Assembly (NCBI GenBank): GCA_031081715.1 | Contig: JAVHMA010000008.1 | Location: 1 to 64,000, forward strand | From: Armatimonadota bacterium | GTDB taxonomy: Bacteria > Sysuimicrobiota > Sysuimicrobiia > Sysuimicrobiales > Humicultoraceae | DNA: 64,000 bases | Direction: 5' to 3' | Shown here: piece after piece, positions 50,923 to 59,272 of the stretch | How positions within the stretch are numbered: position 1 is the stretch's first letter | Layout: each line of letters begins with the position of its first letter | Position numbers and translations under genes: made by a program | The notes under the pieces: generated by a model | The model's input: the letters and a program-made list of their open reading frames with translations, nothing else | Told to the model about the DNA's origin: nothing | Databases searched by the model: none

Positions 50923-52653
50923 TCAGTAGAGCTCCCGCCAGTTCAGCACCTGGACCGGGTTCCCCGGCTGGAGGATGATCTCTCGCGTCCAGGCAGGCAG
51001 GTGCGTCAGCATGTCCGGCATCTGCCAGAAGTCCGGCACCTGGCCCAGGCCCATGCCGCGGGTCATCAGGATCCCATACCATTGCAGCTTGCGCACGATC
51101 GTGAAGAGCGCGGACGAACCCCGGGCGCCCACGATGGCCATCAGGTTCATCTCCTGGGCGCAGGCGTTGGCGTTGAGGTTCGCGTGAGCGCTCCCATTCA
51201 CGACGAACACGGCTACGTCCGGGCTGTTCGGGTGCGACGCGTTGACGCGCGCGTATGTCGAGAGCGGGTTGTCGGTGCCGGGGCTCCCCAGGCAGGGCGA
51301 AATGCGGGCCCGCAAGCTGTAGCCCGGGTGGCTGCCAGTCTGCGTCCCGCACAGGCTGTTCAGGTTGAAGTCGAGCGCGCATCCGGACTGCGCCGTCACC
51401 TGCCCCGGCGCCACGGCCGACGGCTGGTTCCCGACCACGATCGTGCCGCGCCCCTCGTACCGGATGTCCCGGCCGATCCTGACGCCGCCGGGCACGTAGA
51501 TGGGGCGCGTGTCGTTGCGGAAGACGAGCTGTGCCGTGGCGTCGGTCGGGTCCCACATGAGCCGGAACTGTCCCCCTGCCCGGACCTGGGAGATACTGGC
51601 CGGGTACCCACCGCACGGGTTGGCTGGATCGACGGTGGGAGGCGGCAGGAAGAACGTGTCGGTCGCCACGGTACCGGCGAGCACCAGGTTCGGCGGGCTC
51701 GGGGTCTCGGCGATCCACCCGCTCCCCTGCCAGCGGCACCGCACGAACTGCAGCGTACCGCCGCTCTGCCGCAGCAGGTTGCCGGGCGTGGTCAGGGCCC
51801 GCTGCGTCTCGGCGACCACGTCGGGGTAGAACGGCGGCAGGACCGTGCTGTCCAGGTTGGTCGGGTTGAAGTTGGTGCTCACCCGCCCGGTGATGCTGCC
51901 CCCGATGTGAACCCAGTGGTACGGGTTGCCGATCGTCGGGTTGCCGGTCGTCGTGTCCAGGTTGCGCTGGATGTACAGATGATTGAGGAAGCGCGGCGCG
52001 TCGGCGAGCGACACGTACCGGTCGTTGAAGAACCCGGCCTGCGCGGCGCCGCGCAGGACCAGGTTGCCCTCGATGTACGCCGACCCGTGGAACTGCAGGC
52101 TTCCGCCGCCGCTGATGGCGGTGGTGTCCACGTCCAGGATGGAGTACATCATGAAGTCGGCCCCGGTGGCCCTGCGCAGTTCGAACTCGATGGTCCGGGT
52201 GGCGCCGCGGACGGTTCCGATGGCGCGGACGGTGATGTTGGCGGCCGGGTCGCGTCCTGCGATGCGACGCACCGCCACGGTGAACGTGCCCACCGGGCAC
52301 GGCGAGGTCGCGCAGATCGGCGAGTCGGGGTCCGGGAACGCCGTGTTGGCGAGCGGTCGGGGCGAGTTGGCGCAACAGGTCGTCCAGGAGACGGACGAGG
52401 TCGCCTGATCGCTCCAGTCCGCATCGGGGTCGCCGCGCAGCAAGTCGATCGCCAGCTCCGCGCCGGCCTCGGCGGCGAGGAACGCCTGGCTCGAGCGATC
52501 GACCGTGGTCGCCGTCGAGTACTCGGACACGGCCAGATTCGCGAGCCCGGCCGAGACGATGGCCAGCACCATGATGACGACGAGCGCCATGAGCATGGCC
52601 ATGCCCGCCTCGCCGGCACCGCCGCGGCCCGGCCTCCAGCCTGCTGTACGCAT
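50923..52653 (-). CDS. PilX-like type IV pilus accessory protein (cassette 1)
   Basis: The 576-residue protein has the N-terminal EAG/MAMLMALVVIMVLAI helix followed by AFLAAEAGAELAIDLL, the PilX N-terminal pattern. A long extracellular region follows with Cys pairs and Asn/Thr/Gly-rich repeats (about 100-576). The ATG at 52653 is preceded by GGAGAGAG. It is the last gene of cassette 1 and the largest of the pilins in the operon. Confidence 0.75.
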   Translation of the reverse strand: MRTAGWRPGRGGAGEAGMAMLMALVVIMVLAIVSAGLANLAVSEYSTATTVDRSSQAFLAAEAGAELAIDLLRGDPDADWSDQATSSVSWTTCCANSPRPLANTAFPDPDSPICATSPCPVGTFTVAVRRIAGRDPAANITVRAIGTVRGATRTIEFELRRATGADFMMYSILDVDTTAISGGGSLQFHGSAYIEGNLVLRGAAQAGFFNDRYVSLADAPRFLNHLYIQRNLDTTTGNPTIGNPYHWVHIGGSITGRVSTNFNPTNLDSTVLPPFYPDVVAETQRALTTPGNLLRQSGGTLQFVRCRWQGSGWIAETPSPPNLVLAGTVATDTFFLPPPTVDPANPCGGYPASISQVRAGGQFRLMWDPTDATAQLVFRNDTRPIYVPGGVRIGRDIRYEGRGTIVVGNQPSAVAPGQVTAQSGCALDFNLNSLCGTQTGSHPGYSLRARISPCLGSPGTDNPLSTYARVNASHPNSPDVAVFVVNGSAHANLNANACAQEMNLMAIVGARGSSALFTIVRKLQWYGILMTRGMGLGQVPDFWQMPDMLTHLPAWTREIILQPGNPVQVLNWRELY

Positions 52654-52663
52654 GGGCTCTCTC

Positions 52664-53281
52664 CTACCGCCGCAGGTAGACATCGGTGGACATTCCCAGC
52701 GTGCCCGGGCTCTCGAGCCCGCGCGCCTGAATCGTGATCTGAATCCGCCGCACCGACGAGCGCACCAGCGGATCGGCGAGCGCGGCGGCGGCGAGCGGGG
52801 CACCGGCGCCGGGGGAGTCGTCGAAGTAGCGGAGCGAGAGGCCGGTCACCGTCAGGTTCCGGACCTCGACGTTCGCAGTGAGCGGGTCGCCCACCGCGGA
52901 GCCACACAGGCTGGTGTCGGCCGGGATCGGCTCGATGCGGCTGGCGTACACGACGGCCTCCGTGGTGTTGAGGTAGATGCGGTGGCACTCGATCACGCCA
53001 TTCCCGTCGGTGTCGCCCGCGAAGACCACGTCGGCCCCCTCCGCGCGCAGGAGCGGCACACCCTCGAAGCCGCTGCCAGCAGCCCGCAGCCGCCGCGCGG
53101 TCCAATCCAGCACCAGACGCGCGTTGTGCTGTTCTCCGGCGAACTGCTGCGCGGTGATCCACGCGCGCATCGAGCCCTTCAGCCCGGCGAAGATCCCGCC
53201 GGCCGCGAGCGCCATGACCGTCAGGCCCACCACGACGTCCATCAGCGCGGCGCCGCGCGCGCGTCTCAGGTCGATGCCCAT
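52664..53281 (-). CDS. PilW-like minor pilin (cassette 1)
   Basis: The 205-residue protein has the prepilin-like ARG/AALMDVVVGLTVMALAA. Position +5 is Asp in place of the usual Glu, a conservative change. HNARLVLDWTARRLRAAGS matches the PilW-like helix. Start ATG at 53281. It is followed 10 bases later by the PilX-like gene. Confidence 0.8.
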   Translation of the reverse strand: MGIDLRRARGAALMDVVVGLTVMALAAGGIFAGLKGSMRAWITAQQFAGEQHNARLVLDWTARRLRAAGSGFEGVPLLRAEGADVVFAGDTDGNGVIECHRIYLNTTEAVVYASRIEPIPADTSLCGSAVGDPLTANVEVRNLTVTGLSLRYFDDSPGAGAPLAAAALADPLVRSSVRRIQITIQARGLESPGTLGMSTDVYLRR

Positions 53282-53315
53282 GCAAGGCCCCTCCGGTCGC
53301 ATCGCATCCCCACCC

Positions 53316-53822
53316 CTACGGCCCGGGGACGCGCGCGGCCATTCCGGTGTGCGCGATCAGGAACGGCGGACCGCCCGGCGATCCACCCGGGCAGTTGGTG
53401 AAGATCTCGACGGTCACCAGCCGCAGCGTCGAAGGATCCCGCCCGCCGGCGCCGTCCCAATCGGCGAGCCGTACCACGCCGCACTGGAATCCCAACGGGA
53501 GCGCCGGCGCCTGCGCGTACCTGCTGCCCGCACCCGCCGGGAGCGGAATCGAGCACGGCACGGTGGGGCACTCCGCGACCAGGGCCGGAAACCCCAGCTT
53601 GCGCGTGTACTCGACGACACCCTGGGTCCAGGCGGTGGCCTGCGACCGTAGCCGCGCGCCGAGCTCGTCGTTGGCGCCCCGCCCGACGAGCGTGAGCGTT
53701 GTCACGATGACACGCCCGGTGAGCACGACCACGGCCACGATGAGCAGCAGCGCGACCAGCGACTCCAGTGTGGTGAACCCCGGAGCACCCGCGCGCGGCC
53801 GTCCACGTTCGACCGATCTCAT
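53316..53822 (-). CDS. PilV-like minor pilin (cassette 1)
   Basis: The 168-residue protein has the pilin signal GAPG/FTTLESLVALLLIVAVV with Glu at +5. It has a single N-terminal helix and a small extracellular domain with Cys at VAECPTVPCS and NCPGG. Start ATG 53822. It lies 5 bases after the FimT-like gene. Confidence 0.82.
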   Translation of the reverse strand: MRSVERGRPRAGAPGFTTLESLVALLLIVAVVVLTGRVIVTTLTLVGRGANDELGARLRSQATAWTQGVVEYTRKLGFPALVAECPTVPCSIPLPAGAGSRYAQAPALPLGFQCGVVRLADWDGAGGRDPSTLRLVTVEIFTNCPGGSPGGPPFLIAHTGMAARVPGP

Positions 53823-53827
53823 GGCAC

Positions 53828-54370
53828 CTACCTCGTGACGGTAATCCGCCCCGTGCTCGGGGCGACGACCACACGGTACTGGCGGCCGCGGTAGGTCAGC
53901 GTGATGGTCTGAACCGGAGCCTGCGCGCCCGCGGCGACGGGCGTCCCGGCCCCCGAGAAGAGAATCGCCTGGCCGCTGAACGGCGCCGCACACGCATCCG
54001 GGGGCGTGGGCGTGATCGTGATGACGATTCCACCCTGGAGTTCGTGGCCCACCGCCGCGCGCTTGATCACCGCGCCCGCCGTGGCACCGGTCCGCGCCAC
54101 CGCGTCGTCATAGTTGACCGGATACACCTGGTAGCCCCCGGCGTGGAGGCAGAACTCGACGCGCGGGCCGCTGCCGGCCCTGGCGATCGCCGTCTGCTGC
54201 GCGAACCGCAGGTCGGCCTGGATCAGGTGGGCGGCGGTCTGCAGCGTGCGGTCGGCCACGAACCCCAAATACGACGGCACCGCGAGCGCGAGCATCACGG
54301 CCACCAGCACCACGGCGACCACGGCCTCGATGAGGGCAAACCCGGCCGCGTCACCACGTCGTTTCATCAT
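53828..54370 (-). CDS. FimT/GspH-like minor pilin (cassette 1), first gene of the pilus operon
   Basis: The 180-residue protein starts at ATG 54370, preceded by GAGGT. The prepilin site is DAAG/FALIEAVVAVVLVAVM, with Glu at +5. The pseudopilin domain has DLRFAQQTAIARAGSG and a terminal YRVVVAPSTGRITV, as in GspH/FimT. It is the gene immediately under control of the c-di-GMP riboswitch upstream. Confidence 0.85.
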   Translation of the reverse strand: MMKRRGDAAGFALIEAVVAVVLVAVMLALAVPSYLGFVADRTLQTAAHLIQADLRFAQQTAIARAGSGPRVEFCLHAGGYQVYPVNYDDAVARTGATAGAVIKRAAVGHELQGGIVITITPTPPDACAAPFSGQAILFSGAGTPVAAGAQAPVQTITLTYRGRQYRVVVAPSTGRITVTR

Positions 54371-54395
54371 AATCCGCACCTCGCCCCACCCACTC

Positions 54396-54433
54396 CAAAA
54401 CACAAGAGGGCCTCACCAAAGCGAAGCCCTCTT
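54396..54433 (-). terminator. Terminator in the pilus operon leader
   Basis: On the minus strand AAGAGGGC and GCCCTCTT pair as an 8 bp stem with a 14-base loop, followed by GTGTTTTGG. The 5' arm shares GAGGG with the 3' strand of helix P1 of the c-di-GMP aptamer, so the two structures exclude each other. Confidence 0.75.
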
Positions 54434-54707: not shown

Positions 54708-56786
54708 CTACGCGCGGTCCGGTGCGCCGCCGCCCAGGAGCCGGCTCGAGTTCAGCAGGATCAGCAGGTCGGGGACGACCTGCGCGGCCGCCGCCAGCAC
54801 CGGCGGGAGCAGTCCCGAGGCCGCGAGCGTGATCCCGACCACGTTGTACGTCACCGCGCCGATCAGGTTCTGGCGGATGACGCCGAAAGCGCGGCGGCCC
54901 AGCCGCACGACGTGCGGCACGAGCATCCAGTTCTCGGGCACGACCGCGACGTCGGCGGCCTCCAGCGCCGCGCCTGTCGCGGCGCCGACCGCGATGCCGA
55001 CATCGGCCGCCGCCAGCGCCGGCGCGTCGTTGATGCCATCGCCGACCATCGCGACGGTGCGCCCCTCACGCTGCAGCCGTCGGACGTGGTCGATCTTCCC
55101 TTCGGGCAATAGCGCCGCCTGGTAGTCCACGGCGAGCGCGCCGGCCACCGCGGCCGCGGCGCGCGGGTTGTCGCCGGTGAGCATGCTGATCTGGCGGAAC
55201 CCCAGGCGGCGCAGCGCGGCCAGCGCGGCCGGCACCTCGGGTCGCGGCGCGTCCGCGAGCGCGAGTAGCCCGACGGTCGCGCCGTCTTCGGCGACCAGGA
55301 CCACCGTGTGGCCCTCGGCTTCGAGCGTCCGACCCAACGCCTCGAGCCGCTCCGGCACGGGCACGCCCACCTCGTCGAGCAGCCGGCGGCTGCCGACGGC
55401 GATCTGCCCACGGGCCTCGCGCAGCACCACGCCCCGGCCCGGCGAGACGTCCACCACGGCGTCCGCGCCGGCGATGGGCGGCGTACCAGCGGCGGCCACG
55501 ATCGCGGCCGCGAGCGGGTGCTCGGAGAAGCGCTCGGCGCGGGCGGCCAGGGCGAGCACCTGATCGGCCGTGCGGCCGTCCGCCGGATGCACGCCGGTGA
55601 GGCGGGGCTGCCCGGCAGTCAGCGTCCCGGTCTTGTCGAGGAGCAGCACGTCCGCGCGCGCGAGCGCCTCGAGCGCCGCACCACCCTTGATGAGCACACC
55701 CTCCCGCGCGGCCCGGCCGACCGCGGCCAGCACCGCCACCGGGGTCGCGAGCGCGATCCCGCACGAGCACGAGACCACCAGCACCGCCACCGCGGCCTGC
55801 GGCGACCCGCCGAGGAGCCACGCCGCCGCCGCCGCCGCGGCCACGATCGGAATGTAGTACGCGGTGACGCGATCCGCGAACCGCTGCGCGCGGCTCTTGC
55901 GGATCTCGGCCTCCTCGACCAGCCGGATGATGCGGCCGAAGGTGCTATCGGGCCCGACGTGCTCGGCGCGCACCCGCAGCATGCCGTCGAGGGCAAGGGT
56001 GGCCGCGAGTACCGGCTGCCCCGGCTCGCGCTCCACCGGGACAGATTCGCCGGTGACCGGCGCCTGGTCCACGGCCGCGCGGCCGCCGATCACCGTGCCG
56101 TCTACCGGGATGCGCTCGCCCGGCTTGACGAGCACGACCTCGCCGCGCGCGACGGCGTCGGCAGGCACCACCACCTCTGCGCCGTCGCGCTCGACGCGCG
56201 CGTCCATCGGCCGCAGCGCCACCAGCTCGCGGATGGCCGCGCGCGCGCGGCCGGCGGTGTAGGCGTCGAGCGCGTCGGCCAGCCGCATGAAGAACACGAT
56301 GACCGCGGCCGCGCCGGCCTCGCCGATCGCCAGCGCGCCGGCGATGCCGAGTGTCATCAGCGCGTGCGGGGTCACCGTGCGCGCGCGCAGCGCAAGGGCG
56401 ACCTTGCGAAAGATGGGCAGGCCGCCGGCAAGCACCGCGGCCACGGCGACGGGCCACGGGACCCATCGGGACGCGACATCCGCCCACCCGAGACGCTCCG
56501 CCGCGAGCCCGGCGAGCACGGCCAGCGCCACGCCGACCACGAGCACGCCCGACGCGATCTCCGGGAGCCGCGGGGGCGCGTGCCGGTCCGGGAGCGCGCG
56601 GACCGTGTAGCCGAGCGCCTCGACCGTGCGGGCGAGGACGCCGGCGGAGGTCACCGCCGGGTCGAAGACCACCGTGGCGCGCTCCGCGGCCAGCGAGACC
56701 TGCACGTCTCGCACGCCGGCGGTCCGCCGCAGCGCGCGCTCGATCTTCAGCGCGCAGTTGGCGCAGTCCATGCCGGCGATCGGCAA
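54708..56786 (-). CDS. Heavy-metal P-type ATPase (P1B) with CSC motif
   Basis: The roughly 692-residue exporter has an N-terminal heavy-metal domain (GMDCANC, CxxC), then membrane helices. TGES is in the actuator domain, DKTGTLT is the phosphorylation site, SEHPLAAAI carries the HP, and GDGINDAPALAAADVG is the hinge. The membrane metal site, normally CPC, reads SCSCGIALATP, so the Pro is Ser. The CmtR-like repressor next to it points to Cd/Pb/Zn rather than Cu. The start is uncertain; I use a TTG at 56786, because no ATG/GTG lies between the repressor stop and the metal domain. Confidence 0.85.
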   Translation of the reverse strand: MPIAGMDCANCALKIERALRRTAGVRDVQVSLAAERATVVFDPAVTSAGVLARTVEALGYTVRALPDRHAPPRLPEIASGVLVVGVALAVLAGLAAERLGWADVASRWVPWPVAVAAVLAGGLPIFRKVALALRARTVTPHALMTLGIAGALAIGEAGAAAVIVFFMRLADALDAYTAGRARAAIRELVALRPMDARVERDGAEVVVPADAVARGEVVLVKPGERIPVDGTVIGGRAAVDQAPVTGESVPVEREPGQPVLAATLALDGMLRVRAEHVGPDSTFGRIIRLVEEAEIRKSRAQRFADRVTAYYIPIVAAAAAAAWLLGGSPQAAVAVLVVSCSCGIALATPVAVLAAVGRAAREGVLIKGGAALEALARADVLLLDKTGTLTAGQPRLTGVHPADGRTADQVLALAARAERFSEHPLAAAIVAAAGTPPIAGADAVVDVSPGRGVVLREARGQIAVGSRRLLDEVGVPVPERLEALGRTLEAEGHTVVLVAEDGATVGLLALADAPRPEVPAALAALRRLGFRQISMLTGDNPRAAAAVAGALAVDYQAALLPEGKIDHVRRLQREGRTVAMVGDGINDAPALAAADVGIAVGAATGAALEAADVAVVPENWMLVPHVVRLGRRAFGVIRQNLIGAVTYNVVGITLAASGLLPPVLAAAAQVVPDLLILLNSSRLLGGGAPDRA

Positions 56787-56809
56787 CTCGAGGTGCGTGG
56801 CCGTGGTCG

Positions 56810-57145
56810 TTACGCCCCCCGCCGGTCCACCCGGGTGCAGCGGAAGATTTGGTCGCCGACGCGCTCCAGGAGCCGCTCGGCACCACGGAGCACATCGAGC
56901 ACGAGCCGGTCTGCGATCGTGTACTCGACGAACTGGCCGCGCCGACGCCGGCGCACGAGCCCGCAGTCCTCCAGGCACGCGAGGTGCATGGAGGCGTTGG
57001 GCTGGCTGAGCCCGGTGCGCGCGGCGATCTCGGAGACGCACGCCGGCCCCTCGCGCAACGTCTCGAGGATCGCCAGGCGCGAGGGTTCCGCGAAGCCGCG
57101 GAACAGCTTCCCCTTCAGCGCGCGGTCGTCCAGGGCGACGGGCAT
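56810..57145 (-). CDS. ArsR family metal sensor, CmtR-like
   Basis: The 111-residue winged-helix repressor has the recognition helix GLSQPNASMHLACLEDCGLV. The Cys-x3-Cys in ACLEDCG with a third Cys near the C-terminus (FRCTRVD) is the pattern of mycobacterial CmtR, a Cd/Pb sensor. It is the first gene of a two-gene unit with the ATPase. I chose the ATG at 57145 (MPVALDD); 57163 is possible. Confidence 0.88.
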   Translation of the reverse strand: MPVALDDRALKGKLFRGFAEPSRLAILETLREGPACVSEIAARTGLSQPNASMHLACLEDCGLVRRRRRGQFVEYTIADRLVLDVLRGAERLLERVGDQIFRCTRVDRRGA

Positions 57146-57164
57146 GCCTCGTCTCCGCAACACA

Positions 57165-58494: not shown

Positions 58495-59178
58495 TCAGCC
58501 CGCAGCCGGCGGCGTCACGGCGCCGACCACCGCCCGCACGAGCTGCGGCTCCGGGACGGCGCCCACGACCTCGTGAACCTCGTTGATGACCGTCTTTGGC
58601 ACCGCGTAGACGTTATACTGCTGGGCCAGCGACGGAAACTCGCTGGCCTCCACGATGTCCGCGCGGACGCGCGGCGAGACGACCGCGAACGCGGCGGCCA
58701 GCCTGGCCGCCCGGGGGCAGTGCGGTCAGGTCGGGGTGACGAACACCTGGAGGTGCGCGTCGCCCGGCAGCGCCGCGAGCGCGGCCGCCGTCTCGGCCGA
58801 GACCGGCGCGCGCCCCCTCGAGACGTCGAGGATCACCTCGATGAGCGTGGCGAACTCGTAGCCCGCGGGCATGCCGTAGAAACGCACGCCGTAGTCCTCC
58901 GCGCCCACGACCGCGGTCGCCGGCGTGCGCGCGATCCCGTACGCGGCGGCGACCTCCGGCTCGCTGGCTACGCTGTGCTCTTCGAGGGTCACCCGGTCAG
59001 ACAGGCCGGTGACGTCCTTAAGGATGCGGCGGGTGTACTCCACCATCTCGACGTCCTCTCCCGGCAGCGCAATCCCGCCCACGCTCGGGGCGAAGAACAC
59101 GAGCCGCACGGGGTGTTCCAGCTCCTCGGCGAATCGCTTGCGCAGGAACGCGGCGTCCTGCTCGTTCAGCAGCGGCAT
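58495..59178 (-). CDS. Thioredoxin-fold oxidoreductase, probable selenoprotein (UPHC)
   Basis: The 227-residue product needs readthrough of an in-frame TGA at codon 151 (58726-58728). Upstream of the TGA the frame ends VFVTPT. Downstream it continues PHCPRAARLAAAF, then QQYNVYAVPKTVINE with the cis-Pro loop of thioredoxins, and stops at TGA 58495-58497. The TGA therefore occupies the first Cys of a CPHC active site, as selenocysteine does in UxxC proteins. The layout is that of double-thioredoxin PDO/glutaredoxin-like proteins, with the N-terminal fold lacking CxxC. ATG 59178 follows AGAGGAG. A SECIS-like hairpin lies after the TGA. Confidence 0.82.
58693..58711 (-). promoter_or_regulatory. 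Candidate bacterial SECIS hairpin
   Basis: On the minus strand GGCGGCC / GGCCGCC form a 7 bp stem around the loop AGGCT, starting 14 bases after the in-frame TGA. The loop is about 21 bases from the TGA, close to the distance in E. coli fdhF, whose apical loop is AGGUCU. A bulged U as in the fdhF element is not evident. Confidence 0.55.
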
Positions 59179-59272
59179 GACTCGGCTCCTCTCGGTCCCT
59201 CGGAGATCAACGCCGGGGCGGCGCCCGACATTCCGGGAGGGACGCCGCCGGCGGAGGGGAATTGCAGCGGCG

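Follow-up and report, generated by a model that had tools for sequence, protein, structure and literature searches.

Codon 151 of a minus-strand frame in the window (the whole stretch of 64,000 nucleotides analysed) is a TGA, and the question raised by this locus is whether that codon ends a gene or is read as selenocysteine (Sec) within a longer one. The frame (59178..58495) starts with an ATG at 59178 and encodes MPLLNEQ...QVFVTPT over 150 codons ahead of its first in-frame TGA. The earlier note had claimed that it stays open beyond VFVTPT-TGA, and direct reading of the sequence bore this out: a further 76 codons, from PHCPRAARL to YAVPKTVINE and on to ...AAG, precede a second TGA, giving 227 codons plus a stop. 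The proportion of G or C at third codon positions (GC3) is 0.94 upstream of TGA 151 and 0.93 downstream from it; the downstream part is therefore still coding. The principal features are:

58495..59178, minus strand: putative gene for a Sec-containing protein disulfide oxidoreductase (227 amino acids with Sec; stop codon TGA at 58497..58495)
59186..59190, minus strand: Shine-Dalgarno-like AGGAG, 7 nt upstream of the ATG at 59178
58726..58728, minus strand: TGA codon 151, predicted to be read as selenocysteine (the U of UPHC); TGA in 23 distinct genes and TGC/TGT in 15 Cys homologues

According to the earlier note, the TGA substitutes for the first Cys in a CPHC thioredoxin motif; an alignment of homologues at this codon was suggested as a check. 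A scan of the genome collection yielded 15 relatives, with TGA at codon 151 in 12 and TGC or TGT in three. In a search of 60 relatives of the source genome, every match above the cut-off had either no internal stop or one TGA. After the removal of duplicates, the homologue set comprised 23 TGA genes and 15 Cys genes, with TGA or TGC/TGT at exactly codon 151, in agreement with the proposal, and Cys codons were the sole replacement for the TGA. One TGA homologue (L033) ends at a contig border soon after its TGA. Taken alone, a single genome would display just such an in-frame stop if a nonsense mutation had struck the catalytic codon and left a pseudogene, or if a sequencing error had converted TGC or TGT into TGA. 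The earlier note considered such a mutation unlikely and named sequencing error as a threat to its claim. Both explanations are refuted by the recurrence of TGA at this one position in 23 distinct, independently assembled genes, whose proteins range down to about 37-44% identity with the window protein, and the coding signal persists downstream (GC3 0.93); the probability left to them is negligible.

The read-through protein matched NCBIfam model TIGR02187 (“PDO_seleno_TRX”) with 229.6 bits (2.4e-68), exceeding the curated cut-off of 185 that defines family membership, and the match covered the whole model (positions 2-207 of 209). Its C-terminal redox motif, U151-P-H-C154, is a UxxC, one of the two forms (CxxC or UxxC) expected for TIGR02187. 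Residues 142-218 matched Pfam Thioredoxin_3, and solved protein disulfide oxidoreductase (PDO) structures (PDB 1a8l and 1j08) matched residues 1-220 (1e-35). The fold is taken as given, because the homology to these structures is clear. A profile search found only one TIGR02187 gene in the source genome, the gene described here. The gene very probably encodes a selenoprotein belonging to TIGR02187, the protein disulfide oxidoreductase family, with two fused thioredoxin folds.

The source assembly is 97% complete and contains all the components required for Sec decoding in bacteria, for which the earlier note had advised a search. The selA (519.5 bits, C41:204064-205419) and selB (327.8 bits, C41:205449-207302) genes share a contig with a tRNA-Sec gene scoring above the cut-off (67.7 bits, C41:208712-208803), located about 1.4 kb beyond selB and identified by ARAGORN as a tRNA-SeC with anticodon TCA; selD lies elsewhere in the same assembly (388.8 bits, C15:14434-15357). 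Both selB and selC, the absence of which the note had named as fatal to its claim, are therefore present. Among the 21 TGA-form genomes, all from the same order, selB was detected above the cut-off in 16, and a further genome (G017) had part of selB at the end of a contig; completeness in the remaining four is 69, 72, 77 and 87%. selB was also found in three of the nine genomes in which the above-cut-off form is Cys only. These co-occurrence counts were tallied by hand from two search tables.

Some other form of readthrough, with TGA reassigned (to Trp or Gly, for example) or with low-level insertion of an amino acid other than Sec, giving regulated short and long forms, is conceivable on sequence alone as the source of a minor product, since UGA contexts leak to some degree. 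TGA is, however, an ordinary stop codon in the adjoining fabF gene and neighbouring genes and at the end of the Sec gene itself, and there is therefore no global recoding. The complete Sec machinery of the genome, the substitution of only Cys codons for TGA in homologues and the association of a SECIS-like hairpin with TGA rather than with the Cys codon also argue against this explanation, which we consider very unlikely, if slightly less so than a pseudogene or sequencing error. The reading of TGA 151 as Sec was retained. The features of the hairpin are:

58693..58711, minus strand: bacterial SECIS-like hairpin GGCGGCCA-GGC-TGGCCGCC (8 bp, GGC triloop, -15.3 kcal/mol)
58702..58704, minus strand: rare Arg codon AGG (codon 159), the source of the loop G residues; used for 2 of the 217 Arg residues encoded by five window genes

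The published bacterial SECIS (bSECIS) model specifies a stem of 4-16 bp, a loop of 3-9 nt with a G in the first two loop positions, a distance of 16-37 nt from the UGA and a folding energy of at most -7.5 kcal/mol (PMC13188914). The SECIS prediction recommended in the earlier note gave a hairpin conforming to all these terms in the window (8 bp, GGC, 22 nt and -15.3 kcal/mol). The core of this hairpin, GCGGCCA-GGC-TGGCCGC (58710..58694), has 7 bp, or 8 bp counting the outer G-C pair, and its loop begins 22-23 nt past TGA 151. The 7 bp stem described previously was thus recovered, but the loop, described as AGGCT, folds as a GGC triloop and would read AGGCT only with the A-U pair open. The SECIS of E. 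coli fdhF is a stem-loop located just past the UGA, with G residues opening a small loop, as in the window hairpin. The window stem nevertheless differs in sequence, has a triloop, and places its loop a few nucleotides further from the UGA, such that the spacing, claimed to be fdhF-like, lies within the published range of 16-37 nt but slightly beyond that of fdhF.

In a single GC-rich gene, such a hairpin is only moderately surprising and constitutes weak evidence on its own. Only 0.34% of 20,000 synonymous recodings retained all seven stem pairs, and the z-score of the specific hairpin was about -2.9, but 7.5% of synonymous recodings gave an equally stable, model-conforming hairpin somewhere in the allowed range. 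The minimum free energy of the 45 nt past the TGA as a whole was not unusual (12% of recodings as stable; z -0.94). The Rfam SECIS_1 model gave no match in the whole genome, and equally none in any control genome; an Rfam scan of the gene region yielded only sub-threshold chance matches. The weight of this evidence lies instead in the finding that relatives conserve the hairpin and that Cys homologues lack it. With a strict version of the bSECIS model (perfect stem, and a loop opening with G followed by G or U), the hairpin was found in 15 of 23 TGA genes versus none of the 15 Cys genes; the eight Sec homologues missing the cut-off include several from other lineages. AGG encodes the loop Arg in 17 TGA genes of the window's order and in no Cys homologue. 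At one stem position, 15 sequences have a G-C pair and three have A-U, through a change from GCG/GCC to GCA/GCT that is both synonymous (all Ala codons) and compensatory, and shifting the stem partners relative to each other abolished pairing. This covariation is limited to one pair, in three sequences that are close relatives, and the counts, drawn from related rows, do not represent independent events.

Two homologues, L060 (from G015) and L033, have the Arg codon CGT rather than AGG at codon 159. A short hairpin with the loop CGTGT, in which G is followed by U, can form at nearly the same place in both, with a stability too low for the energy cut-off applied, and suggests an alternative SECIS loop in these sequences.

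The N-terminal half of the protein differs from that of most homologues:

59040..59110 (approximate limits), minus strand: N-terminal thioredoxin-fold half without CxxC, FFAPSVGGIALPGEDVEMVEY, versus ...DCETCEAT in Cys homologues

All members of the window's clade have VEMVEYT, with no Cys, at the position of CETCEAT. The N-terminal CxxC is common to most of the homologues studied, although not demanded by the TIGR02187 model: 13 of the 15 Cys homologues retain it, as do other Sec members (L030, L031, L046, L048, L059, L062 and L063). The window protein consequently lacks the second active site of a classical two-site PDO, such as that of PDB 1j08. Because the N-terminal CxxC has been lost, the predicted Sec site is the only recognisable active site left. 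It is possible, if rather doubtful, that a two-site PDO became a single-site selenoenzyme in this clade, with the acquisition of C-terminal Sec accompanying the loss of the N-terminal CxxC, and with a role as a reductase that has a new partner or substrate.

The literature on this type of selenoprotein goes back to 2006, when a UxxC selenoprotein described as a “homolog of AhpF N-terminal domain” was reported, with Carboxydothermus and Symbiobacterium among its hosts (Zhang 2006; PMC1794560). The family is listed with its UxxC motif in reviews from 2022 and 2026 (PMC9312934, PMC13188914), and the NCBI name of TIGR02187 (formerly GlrX_arch) already includes “seleno”. The window protein shares with this family a full-length match above the cut-off and a predicted Sec in the first position of the C-terminal UxxC, but its clade has no N-terminal CxxC and its motif is UPHC, whereas most Cys members have CPYC. 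The loss of the N-terminal active site appears to be a modest variation on the family. The window gene adds a member in a little-studied lineage, an uncultured bacterial order (with relatives titled Armatimonadetes or ANGP1) not named for the family in the available text of the cited literature. Whole-length homology and two thioredoxin folds are also shared with the archaeal and Aquifex PDO proteins (PDB 1a8l, 1j08, 2ywm and 2ayt). The CPYC of 1j08 aligns with the window UPHC, with the TGA exactly at its first Cys, but 1j08 has Cys in its C-terminal motif and HCQYCD in its N-terminal half, where the window protein has no Cys-containing motif.

The tree of homologues required six changes between Sec and Cys labels, at least two of which were forced by well-supported branches, so that exchange between Sec and Cys probably took place on more than one occasion in this family. 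Three related genomes (G001, G011 and G022) each contain a TGA form together with an uninterrupted Cys-type match above the cut-off, that of G001 being a partial match (positions 83-209).

The source genome may encode a further selenoprotein. Its selD gene (L035:935-1858, corresponding to G000:C15:14434-15357) has one in-frame TGA, ...ACAG-TGA-AAK..., which is codon 22 of the stretch translated; about 32 nt downstream of it lies a hairpin with the loop CGTGC. This gene, too, probably encodes a selenoprotein. A search of the source genome for formate dehydrogenase alpha, the selenoprotein most often found in bacteria, returned nothing above the cut-off.

The fabF gene lies 38 bp downstream from the Sec gene, an adjacency repeated only in the closest relative; no other conserved neighbours were found among relatives. 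This context was therefore dropped as a functional clue, and no function was inferred from operon context. Elsewhere on the minus strand of the window, translations examined by eye indicated a probable regulator of the ArsR type (57163..56810) immediately preceding a CopA-like heavy-metal P-type ATPase (54708-57163 for the two), and a run of genes (50923-54403) whose products seem to begin like type IV pilin-like (prepilin) proteins.

The machinery and the conservation of the hairpin support SelB-dependent Sec insertion at codon 151, in which UGA 151 would be decoded by tRNA-Sec delivered by SelB, itself recognising the hairpin 15-33 nt downstream of the UGA, with its GG-containing loop. The 227-residue product would have U-P-H-C as the redox motif of its C-terminal half. 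Homology to PDO and thioredoxin suggests that Sec151 attacks as the nucleophile and that Cys154 is the resolving residue. The oxidised Se-S bond might then be re-reduced by an NADPH-dependent flavoenzyme of the thioredoxin-reductase type, a putative partner being the product of the thioredoxin reductase gene found elsewhere in the source genome (C37:57834-58730, 419.7 bits). Termination at UGA 151 would yield a protein of 150 residues that lacks both active sites.

This gene is a clear case in which a standard gene caller would truncate the protein just ahead of its active site, and the conserved use of the rare codon AGG within the SECIS loop suggests that selection at the RNA level acts on a coding region. 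The mixture of Sec and Cys copies makes the family a usable case for the exchange of these residues, for which the genomes carrying both copy types should be useful. A well-supported selenoprotein is thus added for an uncultured bacterial order and, if the tentative scenario for its clade is correct, a two-site disulfide shuffler would have become a reductase that acts through a single, highly nucleophilic site.
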